Shown here: positions 11,823 through 58,157 of the stretch, piece after piece
How the letters are laid out: the number at the start of each line of letters is the position of its first letter
How positions within the stretch are numbered: the first letter of the stretch is position 1
Assembly (NCBI RefSeq): GCF_004216905.1
Contig: NZ_SGXJ01000001.1
Span: 1,178,001 to 1,242,000 of the forward strand
Origin: Kribbella sp. VKM Ac-2569
GTDB taxonomy: Bacteria > Actinomycetota > Actinomycetes > Propionibacteriales > Kribbellaceae
Length of the DNA: 64,000 nt
Direction: 5' to 3'
Translations under genes and position numbers: made by a program
The notes under the pieces: model-generated
The model's database searches: none
What the model saw: the letters and a program-made list of their open reading frames with translations, nothing else
What the model was told of the DNA's origin: nothing

Positions 11823-11985
11823 TCCGGCAGGTGTGGGGCGATGAGTTCGAGCAGGATCGCGTGGCTCTTCTCATCAGCCGCAGCGATGACTCCCGGACCG
11901 GAATGGAGCGGCCCCCCACGCAGATCGGTGACGACGCACCCGGCGGCGCGGCCGCCGCGATCGCCAGCTCGAGATCAGAACTCAT
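11819..11985 (-). pseudogene. remnant of an inositol-monophosphatase-family gene
   Basis: On the minus strand an ATG at 11985 starts MSSDLELAIAAAA, like the N-terminus of an inositol monophosphatase-type phosphatase. After about 15 codons the reading frame must shift; the second frame then reads AAGCVVTDLRGGPLHSGPGV and continues to ELIAPHLPD and a TAG, which resembles the C-terminal end of the same family (the GG.vTD..G.P......viAA segment). The roughly 200 residues of the catalytic middle are missing. The best reading is an internal deletion that joined the two ends out of frame. Confidence 0.6.
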
Positions 11986-12003
11986 TCCGTCATCTAACAC
12001 GCG

Positions 12004-12825
12004 TCACACAGCGGAAAGCTTCTCCGGGTTGGCCACGACGCGGATCGCCGTGATCGCCGTGCCGTCGGAGTCCACGGTCAGCAGATGGTGGTTGCCTCGG
12101 ACAACCACCATCAAACCGGGTCCGGTGATCAGGTCCACCGGGGTAATCGTCACGTCAGGACGCCCGTAGATGTGGGCGAAGAAGGTGGCGACCTTCTCGC
12201 GGCCCGTGACGGGTTTGCGGGCGGCCCGGCGGCGACCGTTGGCGTCGGTCCAGGAGATGACGTCGTCCCTGAGCATCGACTCCAGACGCGGCAGGTCGCC
12301 GTCGCGCGCGGCGGCCACGAAGTCCAGGAGCAGGCGCCGCTGTTCGTCGACAGTCGGCTCGTAGCGTGGCCGGTCGTCGGCCAGCGCATGCGTGGCCCGG
12401 CGGTGCAGTTGGCGGCAGTCGTCCGGCGTACGGTCGAGGATCTCGGCGATCTCGTCGTACGGGAGGGTGAACGCGGTCCGCAGTACATAGACCGCGCGTT
12501 GCGGCGGGGTGAGGCGCTCCATCACGTGCAGGAGCGCCATCGACACCTCCTCGAGGTCGAGCGCGTTCGCCGGGACCGGCTCGGGAAGCCACTCGCCGAT
12601 GTAGCTCTCGCGGCGCGACTGCCGAGCTCGCAGTACGTCGACGGACAGCCGCGTCACCACCCGCGTCAGGTAGCGGCGCGGCTCGGCCACGTCGGAGCGG
12701 TCGGCGGCGGACCAGCGGACGTACGCCTCCTGCAGCACGTCCTCGGTGTCGTGCCAGCTGCCCAGCATCCGGTACGCGAGCCCAGCGAGCATGCCGCGCG
12801 CCGACTCGTACTCCTGCAGGATCAA
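12004..12825 (-). CDS. ECF41-type RNA polymerase sigma factor with SnoaL-like C-terminal domain
   Basis: The 273-residue product has sigma-70 region 2 (AYRMLGSWHDTEDVLQEAYV), region 4 (LTPPQRAVYVLRTAFTLPYDEIAEIL) and a C-terminal extension of about 110 residues that reads as a SnoaL-like domain ending NPEKLSAV. ECF41 sigma factors carry this extension with a conserved NPDKL-like motif and are encoded beside a carboxymuconolactone decarboxylase, oxidoreductase or epimerase gene, as here. The chosen start is a TTG at 12825 that overlaps the TGA of the upstream gene (TTGA), which suggests translational coupling. A frame opening further upstream overlaps the partner gene and does not look like protein. 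The extension is known in the family to control sigma activity in place of an anti-sigma factor. Confidence 0.85.
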   Translation of the reverse strand: MILQEYESARGMLAGLAYRMLGSWHDTEDVLQEAYVRWSAADRSDVAEPRRYLTRVVTRLSVDVLRARQSRRESYIGEWLPEPVPANALDLEEVSMALLHVMERLTPPQRAVYVLRTAFTLPYDEIAEILDRTPDDCRQLHRRATHALADDRPRYEPTVDEQRRLLLDFVAAARDGDLPRLESMLRDDVISWTDANGRRRAARKPVTGREKVATFFAHIYGRPDVTITPVDLITGPGLMVVVRGNHHLLTVDSDGTAITAIRVVANPEKLSAV

Positions 12826-44302: not shown

Positions 44303-45154
44303 ATGAGCATCGTTGTCACCGCCGCCACCGGACACCTGGGCACGCTCGTCATCGACGGGCTGCTGCAGCGCGTCCCCGCCGATCAGGTCGTCGCGGTCGC
44401 GCGGAGCGCCGCGAAGGCGGCCCCGATCGCGGACCGCGGCGTCGAGGTCCGGGTCGCCGACTACAACGACCCGGACGCGCTGGCGAAGGCCTTCGGCGCC
44501 GGTGACACGGTCCTGCTGATCTCGGGCCTCGAGCCGAACCGCCGCGAGCAGCACCAGGCGGTCATCACCGCCGCCACGAACGCCGGGGTCGCGCGGATCG
44601 CGTACACCAGTGTGCTCGGCGGACCTGACGCCGACTTCGATCTGGCTGCCGACCACATCGCCACCGAGCAGGCGATCCTCGATTCCGGTCTGCCGTACAC
44701 GTTCCTGCGCAACGGCTGGTACAGCGAGGTCTACACGGACCAGATCGCCGTACAGCTGGCCAACGGCGTCTTCGGCGGTGCCGGGGACGGTCGGATCGCA
44801 TCGGCCGCGCGGCGGGACTACGCGGCGGCGGCCGCCGTCGTACTGACCGGCGAGGGGCACGAGAAGAAGGCGTACGAGCTGAACGGCGACTCGGCCTTCA
44901 CGCTGACCGAGTACGCCGCCGAGCTGTCCAAGCAGTCGGGTCAGGACGTTGCCTACAACAACCTCTCCCCCGAGGACCTCACCCAGGTGCTGACCGGCGC
45001 CGGGATCCCCGCGCCGTTCGTCCCGATCCTCGTCGGCGTCGACAACGCCATCGAACGCGGCCTCCTCGCGGGCCGCGGCTCCGACCTCAGCCGCCTCATC
45101 GGCCGCCCGACCACGCCCATCGCCGACACCATCGCCGCCGCCTTGAAGGTCTAA
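44303..45154 (+). CDS. SDR-type NAD(P)H:quinone oxidoreductase (QorB/NmrA-like)
   Basis: The 283-residue atypical short-chain dehydrogenase has a GxxGxxG dinucleotide site (TAATGHLG at 6-13) and the family segments RIAYTSVLGG and YTFLRNGWYSEVY. Members reduce quinones or act as redox sensors with NADPH. An AGGAG site lies just upstream of the ATG. It is divergent from an AraC-type regulator, which probably controls it, and overlaps the end of the FAH gene by four bases. Confidence 0.85.
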   Translation: MSIVVTAATGHLGTLVIDGLLQRVPADQVVAVARSAAKAAPIADRGVEVRVADYNDPDALAKAFGAGDTVLLISGLEPNRREQHQAVITAATNAGVARIAYTSVLGGPDADFDLAADHIATEQAILDSGLPYTFLRNGWYSEVYTDQIAVQLANGVFGGAGDGRIASAARRDYAAAAAVVLTGEGHEKKAYELNGDSAFTLTEYAAELSKQSGQDVAYNNLSPEDLTQVLTGAGIPAPFVPILVGVDNAIERGLLAGRGSDLSRLIGRPTTPIADTIAAALKV

Positions 45155-45978
45155 GGAGCCGCGACGAGCTGGTTGTGCTGCTCGCCCAGGCCGTCTGCCC
45201 ACACCCGCAGTACGTCGCCCGCGCGTAGGTACCGGGGTGGTTTCTGCCCCGCGCCTACGCCGGCCGGCGTGCCGGTGCTGATCACGTCGCCCGGGTAGAG
45301 CGTCATGAACTGCGTGATGTAGTGCACCAGGTGCGCGACGCCGAAGATCATCTCGGCCGTCGAACTGTCCTGCAGCGCCTCGCCGTTCACGTCCAGCCCG
45401 AGCTTGATCGCCTGCGGATCCGGCACCTCGTCCGCGGTCAGGATCCACGGACCGAGCGGGCAGAACGTCGCCGAGTTCTTGCCCTTGTCCCATTGCCCGC
45501 CGCGCTCGAGCTGGAAGTGCCGCTCGGACACGTCGTTCACCAGGACATACCCGGCGATATGCTCCATCGCCGACGCCTCGTCGGCGAGGTACGACGCCGT
45601 ACGCCCGATCACCACGCCCAGCTCGACCTCCCAGTCGGTCTTCTCGCTGCCACGCGGAATCACCACGTCGTCCTGCGCACCGACCACGGTGTCCGGCGCC
45701 TTCATGAACAGGATCGGCTCGGCCGGCGCCGCCTGACCGCCCTCGGCCGCGTGGTCGGCGTAGTTCAGTCCGACGCACACGATCTTCCCGGGGCTGAGCG
45801 GCGCAGCCAGCCGTACCGCCTCGAACTCCACCGCCGGGTCGGTTGCCGCGGCGGCCCGTTCGCGCCAGCGGTCCGGGTCGAACGCCTCCGACGTACCCGG
45901 CAACGTCACCACCCGGCCGTCATCGGTGAGTACGGCGTCGCGCAGTCCGTCGTCGGTGTGGATCCGGAGCAGTCTCAC
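45151..45978 (-). CDS. fumarylacetoacetate hydrolase-family protein
   Basis: The 275-residue enzyme has an FAH domain with the metal-binding Glu/Asp pattern in EKTDWEVELGVVIGR, ERHFQLERGGQWDKGKN and GDVISTGTPAGVG. Members hydrolyse beta-diketo acids or remove water or CO2 from keto-sugar acids. GTG 45978 has a GGAGG site and overlaps the stop of the epimerase-like gene (GTGA). In this cluster it could act on a keto-deoxy sugar acid, which is inference. Confidence 0.88.
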   Translation of the reverse strand: MRLLRIHTDDGLRDAVLTDDGRVVTLPGTSEAFDPDRWRERAAAATDPAVEFEAVRLAAPLSPGKIVCVGLNYADHAAEGGQAAPAEPILFMKAPDTVVGAQDDVVIPRGSEKTDWEVELGVVIGRTASYLADEASAMEHIAGYVLVNDVSERHFQLERGGQWDKGKNSATFCPLGPWILTADEVPDPQAIKLGLDVNGEALQDSSTAEMIFGVAHLVHYITQFMTLYPGDVISTGTPAGVGAGQKPPRYLRAGDVLRVWADGLGEQHNQLVAAP

Positions 45979-47492
45979 TTGTTCCTCCAACCAGAGTTCT
46001 TCGCCCAGTTCAGGTAGGCGATACCCAATGCGTGCGAGCCTTGCACCGGGACGAGCTGTACGGCGTCGTACACGCGCAGGGACTGCTGATAGACAAGCAG
46101 ATCCTGTTCGGCATAAGCACCCCAGCGTGCACACTGCACCGCGTTCGCCGGCACCGCGTCGCCGGTCCCGTCGACCCGGTACCAGACCTCGGTCGCCGAC
46201 CGGATCAGCTTCTGCGTGAACGTCTTCGTGAAGCGCTGGATGTCCGTCGCGGGTCCACCGGCGATCCCCGCGTCGTACGCCGCATGCACGAACTCGGTGC
46301 TGATCGCGGCGTGGCTCAGATCCTCGATCTGCTTCGAGGCCGGGTACGACGGCGTGTACTCCGAGATGCCCGCGGTCTTCGGGTACCCGGCGTACAGCTG
46401 GCTGTACGGCGGCCAGTAGGTCCAGACGTAGGCGTCGCCAACGAGTCGTAGCGCGGGCTCGTACGCCTTCAGCATCTGCAGGACCCGGGTGCGGTAGCGC
46501 GGCTGCTTGGTCACGCGGAACAGCTCGACCAGCACCTGGCCGATGCCCTGGCTCTGGTTGTACGGCTGGATGGTCCCGTCGAACGGGATCGGCGCGCCCT
46601 TCGGCCACACGTAGTCGCCAGTGCCGTCAGCGCGCGACACCCACTCCGGGTCATGGAACGCCACCGCCGCGGTCGCAGCGTCCAGAACCTCCCTCGCGAA
46701 CTCCTGACTGCGTCGGAGCTTCGGCGATTGCAGCACCATCCGGGCGTAGCGGGCCAACGGGAACGCGATCATGCCGGTGTGCACGGCGAACACGTAGTAC
46801 TGCGATTTGAACGCGATCGTGGTCGCCGCCGGTGCGGGCGCGGCCGCGGGAGCCGTACGCAGATCGACTGCGGTCCAGCGCAGGGACGCGTTGTAGGCGT
46901 TGTTGACCGCTGTCACGACGTACGTCGGTGACGCCGGATCGAGGCTGACAGCGGGCAGCGTGACGACGCTGGTCGTGGCGGGGTTGCGGAGCACGAGGTC
47001 GAAGGTGCCGTCGGCAACGTTCAGGACCTCGGCTGTTGACTCGGCCGACCTGATTCCGGCCCAGCGGAGCTGGATCGCCGGAGTGCCGTTGCCGTCGGGG
47101 AGCACGCCGTGGCCGGCGGTGTAGTTGCCGGCCGTGCGCCAGACCTTTCCGGACCGGCCGGCGTAGTCCTGGACGCGCCGGGCGTGGTCGGTGGTCTTCA
47201 TCAGGTGCCGGGCGCGGTCCTCGAACGTGCGCAGGTAGCGCTCGTCCTGGTAGGCCTCGTACATCCGTAGCAGGGCGAGCAGGAAGTAGGACTCGCCCCA
47301 GGCGTACAGACCGACCTCGTTGTCCTGGGCGTTGGACGCGAGATATCCGGCCTGCGCGGCGTCGAACGCGGCCGGAGAGTCGTAGACGAGTGGATCGGCG
47401 GAGGCCGACAGGGCCGGGAGACCGGCCCAGGCGGCGACCCCGCCGGCGGCGCTGGTGAGTAGGAGCGTGCGGCGGCTGAGCTCAGGGTGCAT
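45975..47492 (-). CDS. Tat-exported alpha/alpha-barrel protein, D-glucuronyl C5-epimerase-like
   Basis: The 505-residue product has a Tat signal (SRRTLLLTSAAGGVAAWAGL) with cleavage near ASA. A C-terminal alpha/alpha region (residues about 230-420, e.g. QSQGIGQVLVELFRVTKQPRY) resembles the C5-epimerase C-terminal domain and related six-hairpin glycosidases; a beta domain lies between (GHGVLPDGNGTPAIQLRWAG). It is followed by the FAH gene with a four-base overlap and preceded by two permeases. A role in changing or cleaving the polymer outside the cell is likely. The exact family is uncertain. Confidence 0.6.
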   Translation of the reverse strand: MHPELSRRTLLLTSAAGGVAAWAGLPALSASADPLVYDSPAAFDAAQAGYLASNAQDNEVGLYAWGESYFLLALLRMYEAYQDERYLRTFEDRARHLMKTTDHARRVQDYAGRSGKVWRTAGNYTAGHGVLPDGNGTPAIQLRWAGIRSAESTAEVLNVADGTFDLVLRNPATTSVVTLPAVSLDPASPTYVVTAVNNAYNASLRWTAVDLRTAPAAAPAPAATTIAFKSQYYVFAVHTGMIAFPLARYARMVLQSPKLRRSQEFAREVLDAATAAVAFHDPEWVSRADGTGDYVWPKGAPIPFDGTIQPYNQSQGIGQVLVELFRVTKQPRYRTRVLQMLKAYEPALRLVGDAYVWTYWPPYSQLYAGYPKTAGISEYTPSYPASKQIEDLSHAAISTEFVHAAYDAGIAGGPATDIQRFTKTFTQKLIRSATEVWYRVDGTGDAVPANAVQCARWGAYAEQDLLVYQQSLRVYDAVQLVPVQGSHALGIAYLNWAKNSGWRNK

Positions 47493-47522
47493 CGGTGCCT
47501 CACAAAGGAAGGAAGGGATGGG

Positions 47523-48371
47523 TCAGCCTTTGACTGCGCCGCCCATGCTGTTGAGGATGCGTTTCTGCAGCAGGAGAAAGACGACAATTACCGGGACGAG
47601 CGAGATCACAGTGCCGGCGGCGAGACCGCGGACGTCGGTGCCGGAGACGCCGCTCAGATAGGCGATCCCGAGCGCGATCGGGAACTTGGACTGGCTGGTC
47701 AGCACCACGAGCGGCCAGATGAAGCTGTTCCACACCGACACGAACCCGAGGATCGCCAGTACGGCGAGCGTCGGCGCGACGATCGGCACGCAGATCCGCC
47801 AGAAGATCGCGAACTCGTTCGCGCCGTCGACGCGGGCGGCCTCGACGATCTCGTCCGGGATCTGCGAGAACGCCTGGCGGAGCAGGAAGATCCCGAGCGA
47901 CGACAGGATCGCGGGCAGGATCACCGCGGCGAACGTGTCGGTCAGCCCGAGCTCGCTCATCACCAGGAACCGCGGGATCAGCATCAGCTCGCCGGGCAGG
48001 AACATGATCGACAGGAACAGCATGAAGAACACGCCGCGGCCGCGGAACGCGATCCTCGCCAGCGGGTACGCCGTCAGCGCGGACACCACGAGGTACACCG
48101 GGACGGTGATGCCGACGTACAGCACCGAGTTCACCAGGAACCGCGCGTACGGGATCGTCGTCCACGCCTCGCGGAACCATTCGAACACCGGCGGGCGCGG
48201 GATCAGGTCGGGCGGGAACCCGAACACGTCCTGGCTGGCGGGTTTGGTCGCGGCGCTGAGCAGGATCAGGAACGGCCCGATGAACAACGCGGCGACCGCG
48301 ATCAGCAGGACATAGAGACCGATGCGCCGTCCGTTGATCGGCGGCTTGGGCCGGTACAACCTGCGGGCCAT
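47523..48371 (-). CDS. sugar ABC transporter permease (MalG-like), second system
   Basis: The 282-residue protein has six membrane segments and the EAA loop EAARVDGANEFAIFWRICVP. Its ATG shares one base with the stop of the first permease (TGATG). It is the last permease before the epimerase-like gene, 30 bases away. It pairs with the next protein to form the channel. Confidence 0.92.
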   Translation of the reverse strand: MARRLYRPKPPINGRRIGLYVLLIAVAALFIGPFLILLSAATKPASQDVFGFPPDLIPRPPVFEWFREAWTTIPYARFLVNSVLYVGITVPVYLVVSALTAYPLARIAFRGRGVFFMLFLSIMFLPGELMLIPRFLVMSELGLTDTFAAVILPAILSSLGIFLLRQAFSQIPDEIVEAARVDGANEFAIFWRICVPIVAPTLAVLAILGFVSVWNSFIWPLVVLTSQSKFPIALGIAYLSGVSGTDVRGLAAGTVISLVPVIVVFLLLQKRILNSMGGAVKG

Positions 48372-49252
48372 CAGACGTCCCTCCGCCGGGTCACCAAGAG
48401 GTTGAAGCCGGCCAGGACGATCATGATCGCCCACAGCAGCAGGCCGACGGCGCTCGCATAGCCCATGTCGTAGTCCTCGAAGGCTTTCGACCAGATGTAG
48501 TAGCCGAGGGTGAGAGTGGAGTCGAGCGGCCCGCCGCGGGTCAGCACGTACACCGACTCGAAGGCCCGCATCGCCTCGAGCATGCTGAGCACGAGCGTGA
48601 CCGCGAACGTGGGCCGCAGCGACGGTACGACGACGTTCAGCAGCCGCTGCCACGCGTTCGCGCCGTCGATCGTGGCCGCTTCGATCTGGTCCGACGGGAC
48701 GGACTGCAACCCGGCCAGGTAGATCATCATGAACAGACCGGCGTTCTTCCACGCCTCCAGCAGGACGACGGTCGGCAGGGCCCAGTGCCGGTCGAGCAGG
48801 AAGTCGGTCGGCCCGGCGCCGAACAGGCCGAGCACCCAGTTCACGACGCCCTCGCGGTTGAACACGTACCGCCAGGTGACCGCCACCGCGACCATCGACG
48901 TGATCACCGGCAGGTAGTAGAGCATCCGGAACGCCTGAATCGCCCGCAGCTTGAGGTTCACCAGCATCGCCAGGAACAGCGGCGCGACCACGGTCAGCGG
49001 CAGGAACATCAGCACGAACAGCAGCGAGTTCCGCAGCGCGATCCAGACCCGCGGGTCGTGGGCCAGCCGGACGAAGTTGTCCAGCCCGGAGAAGCGCACC
49101 GGATGCACGATGTCGTAGTCGGAGAACGCGAGCTGGATCGCGATCACGGCCGGCCACGCGAACATCGCGGCGTAGAACAGCAGCCCGGGCAGCATGAACA
49201 CGTACGGCGTGTACCAGTGCTGACCGACCACGCGGCCCCGGAGACCCGGCAT
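48371..49252 (-). CDS. sugar ABC transporter permease (MalF-like), second system
   Basis: The 293-residue protein has six membrane segments and the EAA loop EAATIDGANAWQRLLNVVVP. It is the first gene of the minus-strand unit and is divergent from the binding-protein gene. The two share a 191-base control region. No ATPase gene is nearby. Confidence 0.92.
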   Translation of the reverse strand: MPGLRGRVVGQHWYTPYVFMLPGLLFYAAMFAWPAVIAIQLAFSDYDIVHPVRFSGLDNFVRLAHDPRVWIALRNSLLFVLMFLPLTVVAPLFLAMLVNLKLRAIQAFRMLYYLPVITSMVAVAVTWRYVFNREGVVNWVLGLFGAGPTDFLLDRHWALPTVVLLEAWKNAGLFMMIYLAGLQSVPSDQIEAATIDGANAWQRLLNVVVPSLRPTFAVTLVLSMLEAMRAFESVYVLTRGGPLDSTLTLGYYIWSKAFEDYDMGYASAVGLLLWAIMIVLAGFNLLVTRRRDV

Positions 49253-49264
49253 GCGCTACTCCTC

Positions 49265-49412
49265 GTGTCTGAAACCAGGATTTCGGATACCAAGCTGACG
49301 GGAACCGTAACGCAGAACTCAGCGCCCCGGAAGCGGTAACTCCAGAAAATTTCCCCATCTTCCGTTGACTCGCGCGAGTTGATGGCGAACACTCTGGTGT
49401 CTGTAAGCCAGG
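49265..49412. promoter_or_regulatory. direct repeats in the control region of the second sugar cluster
   Basis: GTGTCTGAAACCAGG (49265-49279) and GTGTCTGTAAGCCAGG (about 49397-49412) lie near the two divergent starts. Between them is a 12-base palindrome ACTCGCGCGAGT (about 49368-49379). These are candidate binding sites for a regulator of both units. Confidence 0.35.
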
Positions 49413-49443
49413 TTTAGGACATTCCCCTCCTGAGGAGCCAACG

Positions 49444-50751
49444 ATGGCCCGACTCCGACTCACCGCTGTTGCCGCCGCTCTCGTCCTCGCGCTGTGCGCC
49501 AGTTTGGCCGGCTGCGTGTCCGGCAGTCCGGCGGGCGGGAGCGACGACCAGAAACAGTCCGGCGACGCCTACTCCGGTGACGTCGAGTGGTGGACGATCA
49601 ACCTGCAGAAGAACTACGGGCCGGATATCCAGAAGTGGATCGACGCCTACCAGAAGGAGCACCCGAAGGTCTCGATCAAGTGGGTCGACGTACCGGGTGC
49701 CGACATCACCACCAAGCTTCTGGCCGCGATCGCCAGCGGCAAGGTGCCGGACGTCGTCAACTTCACCTCCGCGACCACCGGCCTGTTCGCCGGCTCGATG
49801 GCCGACCTGAGCTCGCTGTTCAGCACCGACGACGTCGCCGCGTACCTGCCGAACCTGGCCGAGCCGTTGGTTGTCGACGGCAAGCGCATCGCGATCCCCT
49901 GGTACAACGGCGGCACGTCACTGGCGTTCTACAACAAGGATCTGCTGGCCAAGGCCGGCTTCGACGCGGCCAAGCCGCCGAAGACGTACGACGACGCGCT
50001 CACGCTGGCGAAGACGTACCACGACGCGACCGGCAAGTCGGCGACCAACTTCATGGCGTACTCGAGCGTCGTCCAGGCGAACGGCGTTCCGCTGCTGTCG
50101 GAGGACGGGAAGAAGGCCGCCTTCAACACCCCCGAGGCCCTCGCGCTGCTGGAGAAGTTCAAGCCGCTCTTCAGCTCGGGCGCGATCGCCCCCGGAAGCC
50201 TCAGCGAGAACCCGCGGGACATGCCGCAGTCGCTGGAGAACAAGGGCATCGCGTTCAACCCGGCCGCCGTGTCCAGCTCGCTGCTGAACGTCGAGAAGAA
50301 CGCACCCGATGTCTACTCGTCGATCACGGTCGGCCCGCCGGTGACCGGTGCCGGCGGCAAGTTCTACATGCCCGGCCAGCAGGTGATGGGCATCCCCGCG
50401 AAGTCGGACAACCAGGCCGCCGCAGCCGCCTGGCTCAAGTACGTCGCCGCGCCCGAGCAGCAGCTCGCGTTGTGCAAGCTGGTGCCGATCTACCCGTCCT
50501 CGGTCAAGGCGCTCGCGGATCCGTTCTTCACCGAGATCTCCGGCACCACGCCTGCTGACCAGGCGCGGAAGATCCTGGTCGACACCTTCAAGCAGAGCAT
50601 CGACGCGTCGATGGGGTCGGGCAACGACGAGCAGCTGCGGCAGCTGTTCGACGACCAGGTGCGGGCGTTCATGTCCGGGACCAAGTCGGCGAAACAGGCT
50701 TTGGATGACGCCGAGAAGGCGTGGAACGACACTCTGGCGAAGGGCAAGTAG
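49444..50751 (+). CDS. sugar ABC transporter substrate-binding lipoprotein, second system
   Basis: The 435-residue product has a lipobox LAGC at Cys24 and a type I sugar-binding fold (EWWTINLQKNYGPDIQKWID near 50-68; PWYNGGTSLAFYNKDLLAKAG). A GAGGAG site precedes the ATG. It would capture an oligosaccharide from the polymer broken outside the cell. It heads the plus-strand unit that includes a dehydrogenase, lyase, amidohydrolase-like proteins and an aminotransferase. Confidence 0.9.
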   Translation: MARLRLTAVAAALVLALCASLAGCVSGSPAGGSDDQKQSGDAYSGDVEWWTINLQKNYGPDIQKWIDAYQKEHPKVSIKWVDVPGADITTKLLAAIASGKVPDVVNFTSATTGLFAGSMADLSSLFSTDDVAAYLPNLAEPLVVDGKRIAIPWYNGGTSLAFYNKDLLAKAGFDAAKPPKTYDDALTLAKTYHDATGKSATNFMAYSSVVQANGVPLLSEDGKKAAFNTPEALALLEKFKPLFSSGAIAPGSLSENPRDMPQSLENKGIAFNPAAVSSSLLNVEKNAPDVYSSITVGPPVTGAGGKFYMPGQQVMGIPAKSDNQAAAAAWLKYVAAPEQQLALCKLVPIYPSSVKALADPFFTEISGTTPADQARKILVDTFKQSIDASMGSGNDEQLRQLFDDQVRAFMSGTKSAKQALDDAEKAWNDTLAKGK

Positions 50752-50752
50752 C

Positions 50753-51787
50753 GTGCTGCGTATCGGTATCGTCGGGGCCGGGATCATGGGGCGTGGCAAT
50801 GCGTTGTCGTTGTCCGGCCGGGCCGACGCCGAGATCACGGCCGTGACCAGCCGATCGGCCGACCCCGCCGCGCAGCTCGCGGACGAGATCGCCGAGCGCG
50901 GTGCGCCACGGCCGACGATCCATCCCGACCTCGGGGCCCTGCTGGCCGACGACGCGGTGGACGCCGTCGTCCTGACCACGCCGGACGACGTCCACGGCGA
51001 GATGATGGTCCGCGCCGCGGAGGCGGGGAAGCACATCCTGGTGGAGAAGCCGATGACGACGTCGGTCGCGGAGGCCGACGCCGCGGTGAAGGCGATCCGC
51101 GAGAACGGCGTGATCGCGATGTGCCTGTTCAATCACCGGTGGGTGCCGGCGTACGCGCAGGCCTACGAGTTGCTCGCGGACCTCGGCGACGCCGCGGTCG
51201 CGTACGCGCGCAAGGACGACACGATCTTCGTCCCGACCGAGATGCTGTCGTGGGCCGATCGCACGACCTGCGCCTGGTTCCTGTCCAGCCACGACATCGA
51301 CCTGGTGTCGTGGCTGCTCCGCGACCAGGTACGCCGGGTCTACGCGACCGCGCGCTGGGGCAAGCTCCGGTCGCTCGGGATCGAGACGCCGGACGCGATC
51401 CAGATCCAGGCGGAGTACTCGCGCGGCGCGGTGGCGACGTTCGAGTCTGCGTGGATCTACCCGAACACGTTCCCGACGACGGTTGATTCGTACGTCGCGG
51501 TGGTCGCGGACAACGGTGTGGTGCAGCTGGATCGGCAGCGGGAGAACGTCGTACTGGCCAAGCCGGACGGCTACAGCTACCCGCGGAACATGCTGCAGCG
51601 GGTCATGCACGGCATCCCGTCCGGTGCGTACGCCGACGCGATCGCGCACTGGGTCGACTGCTGCCGCACCGGCCGGGAACCGCTGATCACGATCGAGAGC
51701 AGCCGCAACGTCACCGCCGTACTCGAGGCCGCCCACCTGTCGATCGAGACCCGCCAGCCAGTCGACGTCTCCATGCTGGTCGCATGA
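50753..51787 (+). CDS. Gfo/Idh/MocA-family oxidoreductase
   Basis: The 344-residue enzyme has a Rossmann NAD(P) site (RIGIVGAGIMGRG) and the signature EKPMTTS at about 98-104, where the Lys takes part in catalysis. Members oxidise sugar hydroxyls. The GTG start is one base after the binding-protein stop, and its own stop overlaps the next gene as ATGA. It probably converts the imported sugar unit to a keto form. Confidence 0.9.
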   Translation: MLRIGIVGAGIMGRGNALSLSGRADAEITAVTSRSADPAAQLADEIAERGAPRPTIHPDLGALLADDAVDAVVLTTPDDVHGEMMVRAAEAGKHILVEKPMTTSVAEADAAVKAIRENGVIAMCLFNHRWVPAYAQAYELLADLGDAAVAYARKDDTIFVPTEMLSWADRTTCAWFLSSHDIDLVSWLLRDQVRRVYATARWGKLRSLGIETPDAIQIQAEYSRGAVATFESAWIYPNTFPTTVDSYVAVVADNGVVQLDRQRENVVLAKPDGYSYPRNMLQRVMHGIPSGAYADAIAHWVDCCRTGREPLITIESSRNVTAVLEAAHLSIETRQPVDVSMLVA

Positions 51788-53904
51788 GCGAAGGACCTGA
51801 GAAGCCTCGGCATATCGACGGGCGCGTCAACCGGATCGGGACGGACGACCTGATCAAGGCGTTCGGCTCACCTGCCGCTGATTTGGCAGGGCTGCGCGCG
51901 TACGTGGGTGAGCAGCTGAGGCGGCCGGCTTGGCCGTTGCCGGAGTGGGCTGAGGCGACTCGGTCCACACCGGACGCCGTACTAGCAGCTGCTGCTCCAC
52001 TACTGGACGGTGTTGATGTCACCGGACAGGGACTTGGGCGGTCGCAGCTGTATGGCTTCCACTACCTCGGCTGGCTCGCGCCTGGAGTGCAGGCGTGGTT
52101 GCTGACCGGTGACGAGCGCTACCTGCAGGCGTTCGAGCAACACCTCGATCAGTGGGTGGAGCAGCGTGACGCGGTGACCGGTGAGTGGCCGGGACTCGAC
52201 GTCATCTGGTACTCGCTCGGGACGTGGGCCCGCTGCCGCAGTCTGCTGCCGACACTCGAGGTCCTGACCTCCTCGCCACTGTCCGGACGCGTGTGGGGCC
52301 GGCTGGTCGCGACACTCATCGGCGGAGCCCGCTGGTCGTACGACGAGCATGACGTCTTCCGGCACGGGAACTGGCAACTGGTGTGCGCAACCGAGCTCCT
52401 GCACCTCAGCGCCGTACTTCCGTCTCTCGTGGAGTCTGCGGCGTGGGCGGAGCGTGCGCGGCAGCGGATCGAGGAGCACCTGCTGCTGGACATCTATCCG
52501 GACGGCGGGCACTACGAACGCTCCCCTGGGTACCACCGGATGGTGTTGACAGCTCTGCAGACCGCAGCACGGATCGACCCGGCTGTTGCGGCACATCCCC
52601 GTTTTGCCGCGATGCACACGTGGATGTGCGAACTGGTGTCGTCGGGCGGCTGGCTACCGCATCTGCAGGACAGTGGGATCGAGTGGCCGGCAGCGTCGTT
52701 GCTGCGCGGCAGCTACCTGCTGAACGACCCAGTGTTCGCGCGGGTCGCAGCGCAATGGATGTCGCCGTCGGAGCTCGCTGCGGAGGTGGCCACGTTTCCT
52801 GCCGGACCGGAGCAGTGGCTGACGCCGGGTGCGGTGCCTGAGTTGCCGCCGGCGACTGTGCTGCCGGAGTCGGGGTACACGATCCTGCGGAGCCCTGAAC
52901 TGCGTGCGGTGATCAACCACGGCCCGCACGTCGAGCACGAGTTGGAGTCGCACTCACATCGCGCCGTACTGGACCTGGTGCTCGACGGGTGGCAGCAGCC
53001 GTTGCTGTGGGAGGCGGGCGGTCCGCCGAGCTACGACGATCCGGAGTACCAGACGTGGTACCAGTCGGGCCGTGGCCACAACACGGTCCTCGTCGACGAC
53101 CAGGAGCTGTCGACGGACCGTGGTGTGCTCGTCGATCCGCTGGTGGACACCGGTGTGCTCGCGGTCTTCTCGGGCCGTCACCACGGCAACGGCATCGAGC
53201 AGACCCGAACGATCGCACTGGTCCGCGAGAGCCCGTCGTACGTCGTCGTCACCGACCACGCGCCGGACGCGCACACCTTCCGTGCTTGCTGGCATGCGCT
53301 GCACCCGTGGCGTGAGGTGGGCCCGCTCGCGTACGACGCCTCTGCACCCGACGGACCGGGCTTGCTGCTGATCGATGCCGGTGATGCTGCTGCAGTCGAG
53401 CTGACCGAGGGTGTGGCTCGTCATCCGGTGCTGGAGCGTCGGGCGGCTGAGTACGGCCCGCTGCATTCGCTCACGGTGACGCGGTCGACCGGCGACTTCA
53501 CGACGGTACTGGTGCCGCACGCCGGGGCTGAGCCGGGCGACGTGTCGGTGGATCGGGTCGATGGTGAGCTGGTGGTCGCCCTCGACGAGACGGTCGACCG
53601 GATCGGGCGGTCCACGTGGACACGGACCGTCGGCGGTCAGTTGTCCTGGGCAACCGGGTGGCGGGTGCGGACGCTGCCGGCACTCCTACGGGCGACCGAC
53701 GACGTCGACGTACTGGCCAGGCCGACCGGCGACAAGCTCCACTTCGAGATCACCTGTTCAGGACGCTGCGGGCTGTGGATCCGCGCACGCGGCGAGATCA
53801 GGCTCAACGGGATGCTGGTCGACGCGGTCGCCGAGGACGAGTGGGCGCACTTGACTCTTCCGTACGCCGGGGCGTGGACTGTTGACGGGGTTCGCTATGA
53901 GTGA
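51784..53904 (+). CDS. heparinase II/III-family polysaccharide lyase
   Basis: The 706-residue protein has an N-terminal alpha/alpha toroid (residues 60-350, with ARWSYDEHDVFRHGNWQL and the catalytic-region DGGHYERSPGYHRMVL) and a C-terminal antiparallel beta-sheet half with SHRAVLDLVLDG and a GHNTVLVDDQE-like strand, as in heparinase II/III and oligoalginate lyases. It cleaves a uronic-acid glycosidic bond by beta-elimination. There is no signal peptide, so it acts on imported oligosaccharides. The overlap with the dehydrogenase is four bases. Confidence 0.85.
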   Translation: MSEGPEKPRHIDGRVNRIGTDDLIKAFGSPAADLAGLRAYVGEQLRRPAWPLPEWAEATRSTPDAVLAAAAPLLDGVDVTGQGLGRSQLYGFHYLGWLAPGVQAWLLTGDERYLQAFEQHLDQWVEQRDAVTGEWPGLDVIWYSLGTWARCRSLLPTLEVLTSSPLSGRVWGRLVATLIGGARWSYDEHDVFRHGNWQLVCATELLHLSAVLPSLVESAAWAERARQRIEEHLLLDIYPDGGHYERSPGYHRMVLTALQTAARIDPAVAAHPRFAAMHTWMCELVSSGGWLPHLQDSGIEWPAASLLRGSYLLNDPVFARVAAQWMSPSELAAEVATFPAGPEQWLTPGAVPELPPATVLPESGYTILRSPELRAVINHGPHVEHELESHSHRAVLDLVLDGWQQPLLWEAGGPPSYDDPEYQTWYQSGRGHNTVLVDDQELSTDRGVLVDPLVDTGVLAVFSGRHHGNGIEQTRTIALVRESPSYVVVTDHAPDAHTFRACWHALHPWREVGPLAYDASAPDGPGLLLIDAGDAAAVELTEGVARHPVLERRAAEYGPLHSLTVTRSTGDFTTVLVPHAGAEPGDVSVDRVDGELVVALDETVDRIGRSTWTRTVGGQLSWATGWRVRTLPALLRATDDVDVLARPTGDKLHFEITCSGRCGLWIRARGEIRLNGMLVDAVAEDEWAHLTLPYAGAWTVDGVRYE

Positions 53905-54655
53905 CGATGTGACGAGCGGGTGGTTCGACGCGCGGATCGTCACCGGCGCGCATCCTGCCTCCCTGCTCCCACCCACCGACCGAGACGCGATCGCCGCGCA
54001 CCTGGACCGCTACGCGCTGTCCGGCGCCCTGGTGAGCGCGATGGCGTCGTGGTTGCACGACCCGATCGGCGGCAACGCGGAAGCCTCCGCGATCGCGCAC
54101 GACCTGGCCGACCGCGGCGTACTGGCGTGCTGGACCGCGGTCCCCGCGACGTCCGGTGAGCTCGACTCGCTGACCGCCCTGGTCGATCGCGCTGTGGACG
54201 ACGGCGTCGCGGCCTTCCGCATCCACCCCGCGTCGCACGGCTTCTCCCCCGCTTTGCTCAACGACCTGTACGCCGCACTCCAGACCAACCGCCTGCCGTT
54301 GTGCGTCGATGCCGCGGAACTCTCCTGGCCGGACCTGAACACGATCGCGACCCGCTTCCCGGAGCTGCCGATCGTCGTGTCGAACCTCGGCTACCGGAAG
54401 CTCCGCGAACTCTGGGCCGCGCTTGTTGGCCACACCAACGTCTTCGTCGATCTCGTCGATTTCGCCGCGCACCAGGGCGTCGAGTGGCTCGTCGCCAACG
54501 ACCTCGCCGACCGGCTGCTGTTCGCGACCGGTCTCGGGGTCCGTGATCCCGGCGAGAGCATCGTCCGGCTCGCATGGTCCGGTCTCGACGACGCGACGGT
54601 CCGCCTCGTCGGCTCCGAGAACGCGCGTCGGCTGCTCCAGGGAGTCCGAGCATGA
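53897..54655 (+). CDS. amidohydrolase-fold protein lacking catalytic metal ligands
   Basis: The 252-residue protein aligns by pattern with the next gene product along its whole length (same barrel, FRIHPASHGF against IKVHPSLHRY, FATGLGVRDPGE against FGSDFPFIDQ, ENARRLL against GNARKLF). The N-terminal metal-binding D-x-H-x-H is replaced by DARIVTG, the H of the GHAG segment by SNLG, and the catalytic Asp (FGSD) by FATG. It is therefore probably a non-catalytic partner or a changed enzyme. It overlaps the lyase gene by eight bases and the active paralog by four. Confidence 0.7.
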   Translation: MSDDVTSGWFDARIVTGAHPASLLPPTDRDAIAAHLDRYALSGALVSAMASWLHDPIGGNAEASAIAHDLADRGVLACWTAVPATSGELDSLTALVDRAVDDGVAAFRIHPASHGFSPALLNDLYAALQTNRLPLCVDAAELSWPDLNTIATRFPELPIVVSNLGYRKLRELWAALVGHTNVFVDLVDFAAHQGVEWLVANDLADRLLFATGLGVRDPGESIVRLAWSGLDDATVRLVGSENARRLLQGVRA

Positions 54656-55449
54656 TCGGGCGCCGGCCGCCGCATCGGATCGTCGACGTGCACGCGCACC
54701 TCGGCCCGTACTCGCTGTTCTTCATCCCCGAGTCGGACGCCGCGACGATGGTCGCGGTGATGGACCGGACCGGCACCGACGTCACCGTGCTCGCGGCGAA
54801 CCGCGCGATCCAGCAGGACGCGCACCTGGGCAACTCGCAGTCGCTCGCCGCGGTCGACGCGTACCCGGACCGGATCGCGGCGTACGCGGTCATCAATCCG
54901 TGGCAGGAGCCGGAGCGCGAGCTCGAGCGGCTCGCGGGCGACGACCGGTTCGTCGGCATCAAGGTGCACCCGAGCCTGCACCGCTACCCGGTCACCGGCG
55001 CGCGGTACGCCGCGGTGTGGGAGTTCGCCGAGTCCACCGGCTGTCCCGTGCTCAGTCACTCCGAGCACCAGTCGCCGTACGACGCGCCGCGGCTGTTCGA
55101 GGCGGTCGCGGAGCGCTACCCGGGTACGTCGGTGGTTCTCGGGCACGCCGGGATCACGCCAGCCGGGGTGGACGAGTCGATCGCGGCAGCCCGCCGGTAC
55201 GACTCGCTCTGGCTGGAAGTGTGCGGCTCTCAGATGACCGGGCCGCTGATCCGCGCAATGGTCGACGAGGTGGGCAGCGGGCGGGTGCTGTTCGGTTCCG
55301 ACTTCCCCTTCATCGACCAGCGCATGTCGCTGGGCCGCGTGGTCTGTGCACCGCTGACGGAGAGTCAACGCCAAGATGTTCTCAGCGGGAACGCCCGCAA
55401 GCTGTTCCGGTGGCGGCCGCTACCGGGAGAACGAGGGGTTGGCCAATGA
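54652..55449 (+). CDS. amidohydrolase-2 family enzyme (metal-dependent)
   Basis: The 265-residue TIM-barrel enzyme has the intact ligands: VDVHAHLG near 12-19, SHSEHQ, a GHAG segment and FGSDFPF. This set is that of the ACMSD/amidohydrolase-2 group, which hydrolyse lactones or amides or decarboxylate. It is co-translated with a degenerate paralog upstream and with the regulator gene downstream (both ATGA). In this cluster a sugar lactone is a plausible substrate, by inference. Confidence 0.82.
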   Translation: MIGRRPPHRIVDVHAHLGPYSLFFIPESDAATMVAVMDRTGTDVTVLAANRAIQQDAHLGNSQSLAAVDAYPDRIAAYAVINPWQEPERELERLAGDDRFVGIKVHPSLHRYPVTGARYAAVWEFAESTGCPVLSHSEHQSPYDAPRLFEAVAERYPGTSVVLGHAGITPAGVDESIAAARRYDSLWLEVCGSQMTGPLIRAMVDEVGSGRVLFGSDFPFIDQRMSLGRVVCAPLTESQRQDVLSGNARKLFRWRPLPGERGVGQ

Positions 55450-56813
55450 CGGAAGAGATGCAGCAGTCCGAGCCGGTGTCCGGCGAGCGGTTGCCGGCGG
55501 TGACGGTCGGGCTGTTCGGGCCGCGCCGGCTGGTCAAGACGATGTCGGAGGTCGGCCAGGAGGTCGCGGAGCGGTCCGTGCACGGCGTGCGGTTCCTGAC
55601 CGGCGGGTACGACGACCTGTCCGAAGCCGAGGAGCGCTACCTGCGGCTGCGGGACCGGATCGACGCGGCGGTGTTCCCCGGCCCGTGGGCGTTCGACCTG
55701 GCGACGACCGGCCACTGGCTCACCGTTCCGTCGACCCACCTGCCGCTGACCGGCGCCGCGCTGTACGCCGCCCTGCTGCGGGCCTCGCTGACGATCAAGG
55801 ACGTCGACCTGAGCCGGGTCAGCATCGACTCGCTCTCACTCGCGGACGTCTCCGAGGCGTACAGCGAGATCAGCCTGGACACCGCCCAGGTGTACGACGT
55901 CCCGTACGAGGGCCCCGAGTCCGTCGCGGGATTCGCTGCGTTCCACCGGGAGAAGTGGGAACGCCAGCACACCACGCTGGCGCTGACCACGATCCTGGCC
56001 GTGGAGCGTGAACTGCGCGCGGACGGCGTACCGGTGCTGCGGATCGCGCCGACGCGATCGAGCGTGCGGGATGCGCTGGAGACCGCCGTACTGCTCGGCC
56101 AGGGCACCCGGATGGGAGCGCATCAGCTCGCGATGATCGCCGTACAGGTCATTCCGACCGGTGCGTCGCGGGCAGAGTCGGGTGACTACTGGCAGCAGGA
56201 GCTGGCGCTGTCGACGCACCAGAAGCTGCTGTCCGAGGCCCGCCAGGTCGGTGCGTCAGTCACGCGCCGGTCCGACACGCTCTTCCTGGTCACCACGACG
56301 TACGGCGCTCTGCTGCGGCTGACTGAGCAGTTCGCGGTCGCGCCCTTCCTAGGCGCGTTGACTGCCCAGCTCGGCGTGCCTGTCGCTGTAGGCGCCGGCA
56401 CCGGCCAGACCGCTCGTGCTGCTGAGGCAAACGCCCTCATGGCCGTTGAGGACTCGGTAGCGGCAGGCGGCAAGGTGGCCGTGTACCTAGACGGCAGCAG
56501 CGACCGGGTGGACCTCGAGCCCGGCCCTGCGACGACTGAGTCCGCACCGGTCGACGGGACGTCGCCGATCGACCAGCGGGCGCTGGAGATCGTCACGTCG
56601 ATCGCCTCTGCCATGAGCTCGACTCCTGGTCGTCAGGTGGTCGTGGACGTCGAGAGCGTCGCCGCGATCATGCAGGTCACCCAGCGGACCGGCCGCCGGA
56701 TGCTGAAGGAGCTGGTCGAGGCAGGTCTCGCCTGGCCGCTGCCCCCGGCTCGCTCGACCGCTGGCGGCCGGCCACGCCAGCAGTTCCGCTTACTCACCGA
56801 GAAGCTCGACTGA
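55446..56813 (+). CDS. putative transcriptional regulator with C-terminal winged helix (455 aa)
   Basis: I cannot name the family. The N-terminal 110 residues (VTVGLFGPRRLVKTMSEVGQEV) look like a receptor-like alpha/beta domain. The middle (GQGTRMGAHQLAMIAVQVI to GVPVAVGAGTGQTARAAEANALMAV) resembles the degenerate GGDEF-like domain of CdaR/PucR-type regulators. The end (VESVAAIMQVTQRTGRRMLKELVEAGLAWPLPPAR) is a winged helix-turn-helix. Its position at the end of the lyase operon, overlapping the amidohydrolase by four bases, suggests that it regulates this cluster. Confidence 0.65.
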   Translation: MTEEMQQSEPVSGERLPAVTVGLFGPRRLVKTMSEVGQEVAERSVHGVRFLTGGYDDLSEAEERYLRLRDRIDAAVFPGPWAFDLATTGHWLTVPSTHLPLTGAALYAALLRASLTIKDVDLSRVSIDSLSLADVSEAYSEISLDTAQVYDVPYEGPESVAGFAAFHREKWERQHTTLALTTILAVERELRADGVPVLRIAPTRSSVRDALETAVLLGQGTRMGAHQLAMIAVQVIPTGASRAESGDYWQQELALSTHQKLLSEARQVGASVTRRSDTLFLVTTTYGALLRLTEQFAVAPFLGALTAQLGVPVAVGAGTGQTARAAEANALMAVEDSVAAGGKVAVYLDGSSDRVDLEPGPATTESAPVDGTSPIDQRALEIVTSIASAMSSTPGRQVVVDVESVAAIMQVTQRTGRRMLKELVEAGLAWPLPPARSTAGGRPRQQFRLLTEKLD

Positions 56814-56846
56814 CCTCTCTCGATTGACCTCTCTCGATTGACCTTG
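56805..56846 (+). repeat. three tandem 14-base repeats across the regulator stop codon
   Basis: CTCGACTGACCTCT, CTCGATTGACCTCT and CTCGATTGACCTTG follow each other without gap. The first holds the last codons and the TGA stop of the regulator; the others fill the space before the aminotransferase. Slippage is the likely origin. Confidence 0.8.
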
Positions 56847-56855
56847 GAGAAGCCT

Positions 56856-58157
56856 GTGCAGACTCGCCGTCACGACCACGCAGACCGCCTGTACGCGCGC
56901 GCCCGACAGGTGATCGCAGGCGGTGTCTCCAGCGACGCACGGCGCGCCGACCGGCCGCTGTTCGTGGACCACGCCCGCGGCGCCGAGCTGTGGGACGTGG
57001 ACGGCAACAGGTACCTGGACTACGTGCTCGGCCAGGGCCCGAACCTGCTCGGCCACGCCGCACCACTCGTCGCCGACGCGGTCTCCGACCAGGTACGCCG
57101 TGGCGTCGCGTACGCCGCCCAGCACGAGTTGGAGGCACAGGTCGCCGAACGCCTGTGCAGCATGGTGCCGGCTGCGGAACTGGTCCGCTTCAACACCGTC
57201 GGCTCGGAGGCGGTGCACGGCGCGATCCGGCTGGCCCGCGGCCACACCGGGCGCCCGAAGATCGTGAAGTTCGAGGGCAACTATCACGGCTGGCTCGACC
57301 CGGTCCTCTACAGCGTGCATCCGGACCTCGCGCTGGCCGGCGATGCCCGGCACCCCACCGCGGTCGGCGGTACGGCGGGCCAGCCGCGGCACGACGCCGA
57401 CGACCTGATCGTCCTGCCCTACAACGATCTGCCTGCTGTCGCTGAGGTGTTCGCACGGAGTGGGGACGAGATCGCCGCGGTCATCCTCGAGCCGCTGCTC
57501 TGCAACACCGGCTGCATCACGCCGGCACCTGGTTATCTCGAAGGGCTCCGGGAGCTGACCGAGCAGCACGGATCGTTACTGATCTTCGACGAGATCATCA
57601 CCGGGTTCCGGGTCGCTCCGGGCGGGGCCGGTGAGCTGCTGGGCGTCGTACCCGATCTGGCCGCGTTCGGGAAGGCGATGGCCGGCGGGATGCAGGTGTC
57701 CGCACTGGTCGGCTCGGCCGAGGTGATGGGGACGATCGCGGACGGGAAGGTCGCGCACGCCGGGACGTTCAACTCCCATCCGGTGGGGATGGCCGCCGCC
57801 GACGCGGTACTGCGTCATCTCGACGAGCACCGCGACGACGTGTATCCACCACTGACCGCGACAGGCCAACGGTTGATGGCCGGCCTGCGCGCGGCAGCTG
57901 CAAAGCATGGGGTGCCGCTGCTCGTGGACGGTCCCGGTCCGGTGCTCCAGACGTACATCACGGACCAGGCCGCCGTCACGGACTACCGCACGTTCGCTGC
58001 CTGCGACCGGGCCGCGATGACTCGCTTCCACGCGGGGCTGTTCGCTGCCGGCATCAGCATCGTCCCGCGCGGGTTGTGGTTCCTCTCCACCGAGCACACC
58101 GCAGACCACGTCGACGAGACTATTGCGGTAGCAGACTCAGTGCTCGCTGCGCTTTAG
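56856..58157 (+). CDS. class III aminotransferase, glutamate-1-semialdehyde aminomutase-like
   Basis: The 433-residue PLP enzyme has the fold-type I features: the cofactor-binding segment GSEAVHGAIRLAR, FEGNYHGW, the acid FDEIITGFR and the Lys in FGKAMAGGM near 273. It resembles HemL, but the catabolic setting argues for another role, for example transamination of an amino- or keto-sugar product. GTG 56856 is chosen because GGAG lies eight bases upstream; a TTG 18 bases earlier is also in frame. It is the last gene of the plus-strand unit. Confidence 0.85.
   Translation: MQTRRHDHADRLYARARQVIAGGVSSDARRADRPLFVDHARGAELWDVDGNRYLDYVLGQGPNLLGHAAPLVADAVSDQVRRGVAYAAQHELEAQVAERLCSMVPAAELVRFNTVGSEAVHGAIRLARGHTGRPKIVKFEGNYHGWLDPVLYSVHPDLALAGDARHPTAVGGTAGQPRHDADDLIVLPYNDLPAVAEVFARSGDEIAAVILEPLLCNTGCITPAPGYLEGLRELTEQHGSLLIFDEIITGFRVAPGGAGELLGVVPDLAAFGKAMAGGMQVSALVGSAEVMGTIADGKVAHAGTFNSHPVGMAAADAVLRHLDEHRDDVYPPLTATGQRLMAGLRAAAAKHGVPLLVDGPGPVLQTYITDQAAVTDYRTFAACDRAAMTRFHAGLFAAGISIVPRGLWFLSTEHTADHVDETIAVADSVLAAL

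Follow-up and report, generated by a model that had tools for sequence, protein, structure and literature searches.

What substrate does a compact gene island of Kribbella sp. VKM Ac-2569 serve, and by which route, when it sets a heparinase II/III-type lyase beside an aminotransferase, a dehydrogenase, a fumarylacetoacetate-hydrolase-family enzyme and two amidohydrolase-fold proteins? The island lies at positions 45151-58157 of a stretch of 64,000 nucleotides (the window; positions 1,178,001 to 1,242,000 of the forward strand of contig NZ_SGXJ01000001.1, NCBI RefSeq assembly GCF_004216905.1), and its limits coincide exactly with the stop codon of the gene FAH at one end and that of the gene AT at the other. 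A first-pass annotation had described thirteen genes in two divergent units; the two divergent units stand, but the genes number eleven, four of them running leftward (FAH, EPI and the permease genes PERM2 and PERM1) and seven rightward (SBP, GFO, HEP, AH1, AH2, REG and AT). Neighboring genes overlap by 1-8 bases in six of the nine adjacent pairs inside the two units, which fits two operons. On balance, and by a narrow step beyond even chances, we read the island as a self-contained, self-regulated utilization locus for an acidic, probably uronic-acid-containing oligosaccharide, the most unusual element of which is a pair formed by an active and a dead amidohydrolase.

The block is conserved as a whole. 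A contig search with AH1 as query returned nine loci, every one from Kribbella, and the 11-gene block is colinear in all nine of these named loci, so that the cluster is not a product of chance. Across 38 Kribbella genomes, the same 20 (own genome included) hold a REG orthologue (at least 81% identity), AT (E 1e-125), AH1 (E 1e-15) and the promoter site described below, and in the other 18 AT, AH1 and the REG orthologue all fall below the thresholds used, REG paralogues of 30-40% identity being found in some of them. The island is thus inherited in this genus as an all-or-none unit. Genome G003 departs from the usual arrangement: the stretch fetched around its cluster (L133) contains no AT, FAH or EPI, and the only AT of this genome, a 66% copy, belongs to a diverged second cluster located on a different contig (L068). 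There it is accompanied by relatives of EPI, GFO, FAH and REG and by a protein of heparinase II/III type with a Tat signal that scored below the Pfam cut-off. Plasmid records searched with EPI and with HEP gave no match, and the 133 plasmid records matching AT are all below 60% identical (44.8% for the first listed). Gene calls outside the window came from a GC-based script, and some of their starts are uncertain.

The same unit carries what appears to be its own switch. The divergent promoter, 191 bases long, holds two 24-base imperfect palindromes, one at each end: putative operator site 1 (49266-49289, minus strand, TATCCGAAATCCTGGTTTCAGACA) adjoins the start of PERM1, and putative operator site 2 (49398-49421, plus strand, TGTCTGTAAGCCAGGTTTAGGACA) lies 5' of SBP and 3' of a TTGACT element that is conserved by eye in the alignment; a search of 49200-49500 for a sigma-70 consensus promoter called none. 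The paired palindromes are recognizable in all nine aligned Kribbella relatives, with at most three mismatches to the pattern in those scanned. With up to two mismatches allowed, the pattern TGTCNNNAANCCNGGTTTNNGACA occurs at just these two places in the 8.4 Mb genome, and a reversed control pattern has no match there; in the window, with up to three mismatches, four strand matches fall at two places (shuffle mean 0.06). The pattern was matched in 24 of the 38 Kribbella genomes, namely the 20 cluster-bearing ones and four that are cluster-free, and in each of the 20, to judge by coordinates, one site precedes REG by 5.9-6.4 kb. None of the four Kribbella stretches scanned around REG paralogues contains it (the scan of sequences other than our own left out L106-L108 and L110), and a half-site pattern is present in the window, L024 and L028, with none in L030 or in 14 other loci scanned. 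Sites and EPI are also associated outside the cluster: G003 has a second site pair 1.7 Mb from its cluster, immediately preceding a solitary EPI copy (67% identical to the island's EPI). Downstream of that solitary gene, L132:9854-11719, a short 3' piece of FAH remains.

The protein that would bind these paired 24-bp sites is most plausibly REG (55446-56813, plus strand), a candidate regulator by its place, its relatives and its C-terminal segment, and probably a repressor private to the island. It has no Pfam match, no NCBIfam model and nothing significant in a PDB sequence search, and its relative L097:8906-10198 has no Pfam family either. Counting the own genome, 63 of 394 genomes in the class have relatives at E 1e-12, and a single Kribbella genome may yield as many as six matches; among them are proteins of L009-L023 and L070-L078.

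Beyond the genus, AT serves as the better marker, since AH1, searched across the phylum, matched sequences outside Kribbella only weakly (best E 8e-9). Of the 394 class genomes, 12 (own genome counted) carry AT at E 1e-125 or better, and we examined all 12 non-own places, spread over 11 genomes; because these places were selected by AT, its presence there is no evidence. Around them FAH and AH2 are each found at 12 of 12 and AH1 and GFO each at 11 of 12, both misses falling in the short (14.5-kb) contig L082. HEP relatives stand at five of the 12 places (type I; in L112 the HEP match and the GFO match are each broken into two pieces), whereas at six, all in genus g274 and here called type II, a 718-amino-acid protein family occupies the position between the permeases and AH1 instead of HEP. 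Two of the type I places, L094 and L103, likewise belong to g274. REG relatives were found in six of the 12 fetched distant stretches. A core of AT, GFO, AH1/AH2, FAH and transporter thus stays together across lineages while the depolymerase changes, and, as far as gene content can tell, diverged versions of the island exist in other families of the class. The description of an uncharacterized cluster with a private regulator is accordingly borne out by its all-or-none inheritance, a cluster-specific site, core enzymes kept elsewhere and, among the matches listed, no equivalog reached.

The type II replacement (L104:14806-16962, with relatives in L105-L109, in HEP's place) matches neither a Pfam family at E 0.01 nor a PDB entry below E 1, and it occurs in seven of 296 class genomes, all of one genus, at 83-100% identity. 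Two further proteins, alike by eye, each have a signal-like start and lack a Pfam match; they lie next to AT (L104:7575-8876) and further along (L114:6497-7822) in a type II locus. In L116 (10704-13110), two more adjacent amidohydrolase-like genes, one of which has altered metal motifs by eye, come after a gene that resembles the DHDPS-family gene of L114 (family established by Pfam on L114:12508-13425).

The presence of two amidohydrolase-fold proteins had been noted at the outset, and both AH1 (53897-54655) and AH2 (54652-55449), on the plus strand, match Pfam Amidohydro_2 over cut-off, but the two are not equivalent, for AH1 is without metal ligands. AH2 carries the HxH, His, His, Asp metal set of the ACMSD type, and DxHxH, GHxG and GSD are kept in all eight AH2 rows (by motif scan, the remaining His being read from the alignment). 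The ACMSD-type set is lacking in AH1, where none of nine rows keeps HxH, GHxG or GxD, one row (L094:15668-16465) retaining the second His of HxH; what every one of the nine does have, and the AH2 rows do not, is R-x-x-R in a GYRxxR-like segment. In all six type II loci AH1 and AH2 form a single open frame of 531-651 amino acids whose N-half is free of ligands and whose C-half is intact (metal set kept in none of the six N-halves, by reading the sequences). That AH1 is merely a decaying duplicate of AH2, as its lost ligands might suggest, is very improbable: dN/dS is 0.15-0.25 for AH1 and 0.14-0.25 for AH2 (five comparisons each), a similar purifying selection which shows that AH1 is not a relic; the same ligand loss and the conserved R-x-x-R are seen both within Kribbella and in another family, where two genera show them; and the fusion to AH2 is present in each of the six type II loci. 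AH1 is therefore a pseudoenzyme that has lost its metal ligands and is maintained by purifying selection.

The best guide to what such a partner might do is ACMSD itself, which shares the HxH, His, His, Asp ligand set with AH2 (available part of PMC9021598), and whose monomer is described as inactive since a neighboring subunit supplies the substrate-binding arginine (available parts of PMC9021598 and PMC11650718). By analogy, AH1 may reach the arginines of its R-x-x-R loop into the active site of AH2 as one ACMSD subunit does for the other, with the difference that in ACMSD, according to the same two sources, it is an identical subunit that donates the arginine, whereas here the partner would be a separate, dead paralogue. 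The AH1 arginines stand at a different distance from the aligned motif than in ACMSD, so that the likeness is one of analogy. We infer that the two proteins probably form a heteromeric complex. A predicted model of the fused form reached a mean pLDDT of 79.9 and a pTM of 0.57, and a fold search with it, which covered residues 278-540 (the C-half, corresponding to AH2), gave Z-scores of 22-27 with the ACMSD-related superfamily; uncharacterized, decarboxylase and hydrolase relatives lie within a few Z units of one another, giving no choice between decarboxylase and lactonase. Among the open-license papers listed, judged by titles and the starts of abstracts, neither such an amidohydrolase pair nor the island gene set was found described. 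A second AH1/AH2 pair, in L094:13323-17618, adjoins an MR/MLE enzyme; an SDR lies close by, and positions 11864-12529 encode an RraA-like protein.

The remaining catabolic families named at first reading also hold, as nine of the eleven island proteins were scanned (PERM1 and PERM2 were left out) and Pfam cut-offs were exceeded for FAA_hydrolase, SBP_bac_1, GFO_IDH_MocA, the N and C domains of Hepar_II_III, Amidohydro_2 twice and Aminotran_3. Their exact functions are less readily named: among the matches listed, no island enzyme reaches an NCBIfam equivalog cut-off (for AT, among the best 25 of 70), and the sole model passed is a subfamily model, NF000818, by AT, with a margin of 1.5 bits.

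For HEP (51784-53904, plus strand), the Hepar_II_III domains score 61.1 bits at the N-terminus (cut-off 22) and 49.7 bits at the C-terminus (cut-off 24), and N196, Y250, H390, H392 and H432 are invariant in all seven aligned rows. The catalytic residues of heparinase III are given as Asn240, Tyr294 and His424 in the accessible part of PMC12088678, and the N196-Y250 spacing of 54 equals that of Asn240-Tyr294 there. HEP thus appears to retain the Asn/Tyr/His lyase residues, matched by conservation and spacing rather than by residue-by-residue alignment to a solved lyase, with the catalytic histidine one of three candidates. Both Pfam domains and these residues are held in common with the lyases of families PL12, PL15, PL17, PL21, PL35 and PL39 (for the residues, PMC12088678, in the part seen), from which HEP differs in three respects. 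Against the NCBIfam HepC models it scores 38.1 and 22.4 bits, far off the equivalog cut-offs of 700 and 600; its best PDB match is weak (E 7.6e-6 over 172 residues); and no N-terminal signal is visible by eye, in agreement with the original description of a lyase without a signal. As the heparinase II/III module is, by the same partial source, common to alginate lyases too, the name does not give the substrate. The genome as a whole has nine Hepar_II_III_C matches over cut-off, among which HEP ranks fifth.

A lyase with its triad intact is what ordinary uronate catabolism would also need, and in that account the unsaturated uronate released by HEP is finished by KDG enzymes encoded elsewhere, while AT, GFO, the amidohydrolases and FAH handle the second sugar of the polymer. 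The first-pass view that the gene set does not match the standard KDG route is correct for the island itself, in which no KDG genes are seen, but the genome does encode a KDPG aldolase that scores over its cut-off: both own-genome matches lie on contig 2, the island being on contig 1 (KduI, KduD, DehR and KdgK were not searched for). This makes the argument from absent KDG genes weaker than it looked. We nonetheless hold ordinary uronate catabolism to be distinctly unlikely, as AT, GFO, the amidohydrolases and FAH keep together across families while the depolymerase changes, a pattern which fits a dedicated downstream route better.

The enzyme that would act before HEP is EPI (45975-47492, minus strand), which had been called a Tat-exported epimerase-like protein. 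A twin-arginine segment, SRRTLLL, is visible by eye at its start, but Pfam TAT_signal at E 0.01 reports none for EPI and falls below cut-off for two relatives in L068; the only family match is to GH88 at E 0.0052, below the Pfam cut-off, with none in NCBIfam (E 0.01) and nothing significant in a PDB sequence search. The predicted model (pLDDT 80.5, pTM 0.81) is a helical barrel with a beta insert, for which the best fold matches are about equal: GH76 at Z 24.7, cellobiose 2-epimerase at 23.2 and GH105 at 22.4, with TM-scores of at most 0.36 normalized by the query and 6-14% identity among the matches listed; as a sign of the AGE-type (alpha/alpha)6 barrel, the epimerase match is no closer than the other two. 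EPI therefore resembles the barrels of the AGE/cellobiose 2-epimerase, GH76 and GH105 groups in predicted fold, but differs from them in its low identity, its extra beta part and the want of a family match. On this predicted model, "epimerase-like" would hold at the level of the fold superfamily only, and EPI is best taken as a putative secreted glycan-processing enzyme.

The import function assigned to the island is supported by SBP (49444-50751, plus strand), a solute-binding protein of Pfam SBP_bac_1 with a lipoprotein-type start by eye, and by the two ABC sugar-type permeases PERM2 (47523-48371) and PERM1 (48371-49252), both on the minus strand and named from sequence, whose relatives sit in the same place; what it lacks is an ABC ATPase gene, none being present in the unit. 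On general grounds, such an ATPase is taken to be supplied from elsewhere in the genome.

The last gene of the island raises the question of nitrogen. AT (56856-58157, plus strand) is a class III aminotransferase of the glutamate-1-semialdehyde aminomutase (GSAM) subfamily: its best PDB matches are GSAMs over nearly the full length, and it scores 399.5 bits against NF000818 (cut-off 398), whereas the HemL equivalog TIGR00713 is not reached (385.8 of 527.3 bits). The lysine of its fgk-ggm segment, presumably the PLP lysine of the class III fold, is aligned in all five GSAM alignments listed, and the GGVxSxxR segment is kept; a difference from HemL/GSAM lies in the C-terminal stretch "psafE" of GSAM 4e77, which aligns in AT with "prgl", before "wfls". 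Amino sugar acid catabolism, in which AT would remove the nitrogen of an amino-uronate freed by HEP, is a tentative proposal that could hold within our preferred reading. It draws on the retained lysine and GGVxSxxR segment and on the presence of AT in all 20 cluster-bearing genomes, in G003 only as the paralogue of the second cluster, but no deacetylase or amino-sugar enzyme is recognized in the island, and AT could equally install or shift an amino group, as GSAM does. The nitrogen-containing sugar acid proposed at first is accordingly a possible substrate on sequence grounds, for which the constant presence of AT is suggestive, AT being the single gene that speaks for it.

FAH (45151-45978, minus strand, 275 amino acids) leads to a further proposal. 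It shares the FAA_hydrolase family with acylpyruvases and with L-2,4-diketo-3-deoxyrhamnonate hydrolase, which is its best PDB match, and a non-phosphorylative pathway of the L-fucose/L-rhamnose type might be imagined, again compatible with the reading we favor, in which GFO turns a sugar into a lactone by oxidation, AH2 is a lactonase, FAH splits a 2,4-diketo-3-deoxy acid and AT is accessory. The MR/MLE enzyme and SDR near the second AH1/AH2 pair in L094 would suit it. We regard it as rather unlikely, however, because FAH scores 304.3 bits against the equivalog model of that hydrolase, NF053535, with a cut-off of 500, and the island has neither MR/MLE enzyme nor SDR. The L-2,4-diketo-3-deoxyrhamnonate pathway includes a dehydratase and an SDR, both of which are missing here. 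AT would moreover be left unexplained, and AH2 has the five-ligand set of ACMSD (PMC9021598, in the part available). For GFO (50753-51787, plus strand), a Gfo/Idh/MocA dehydrogenase, the nearest models are inositol 2-dehydrogenases, and its score is far below their cut-off.

Returning to the utilization locus that we prefer, its steps, the order in which they occur and the substrate itself can be put together as follows. EPI would trim the glycan outside the cell, and SBP with PERM1 and PERM2, powered by an ATPase from elsewhere, would import the oligosaccharide, which HEP would cleave in the cytoplasm by beta-elimination. GFO would provide an oxidation step and AT would move an amino group; a heteromeric AH1-AH2, with the metal site in AH2 and a catalytically dead AH1, would then carry out a hydrolysis or decarboxylation, and FAH would split a carbon-carbon bond of a keto acid, the product entering central metabolism without kinase or aldolase steps of the KDG route being encoded in the island. 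REG, seated on the paired 24-bp sites, would repress both promoters until an inducer arrives.

Several observations weigh against this picture. The island has no dehydratase or sugar-acid SDR, so that the way from the lyase product to the FAH substrate is incomplete on paper, and the links from gene to substrate are all predictions. The six type II loci are without HEP and REG in the stretches fetched, and EPI relatives are found at only three of the 12 distant places; the site pattern, absent from all 12 non-Kribbella stretches scanned, is not kept alongside REG outside the genus. It does appear, at one place each, in four of the 18 cluster-free genomes (G009, G011, G014 and G026), but the reversed control gave four matches in three Kribbella genomes, and these four therefore look like chance. 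The division into 20 genomes with and 18 without the island is not corrected for the tree and may stem from few events of gain or loss. For the amidohydrolases, a pTM of 0.57 means that the arrangement of the two halves is not confidently predicted, and the fold search of the fused model bears on the C-half only.

A more specific form of the proposal, which we offer as possible but doubtful, is a kinase-free and hitherto undescribed route for uronic-acid oligosaccharides in actinobacteria, in which the GSAM-like AT moves an amino group on the lyase product, followed by an obligate AH1-AH2 heteromer with AH1 lending active-site arginines, and in which the depolymerase, be it heparinase-like, secreted heparinase-like or the 718-amino-acid protein, is swapped between lineages while the core stays. 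If the reading is true, the island would add to the KDG scheme a second path by which lyase products are processed downstream, and AH1-AH2 would be an example of a metal enzyme working with a dead paralogue that is found both separate and fused. REG, from a family that has no Pfam or NCBIfam match despite its members in 63 of the 394 class genomes, would, together with its private sites, constitute a ready-made sensor with which to reveal the substrate.

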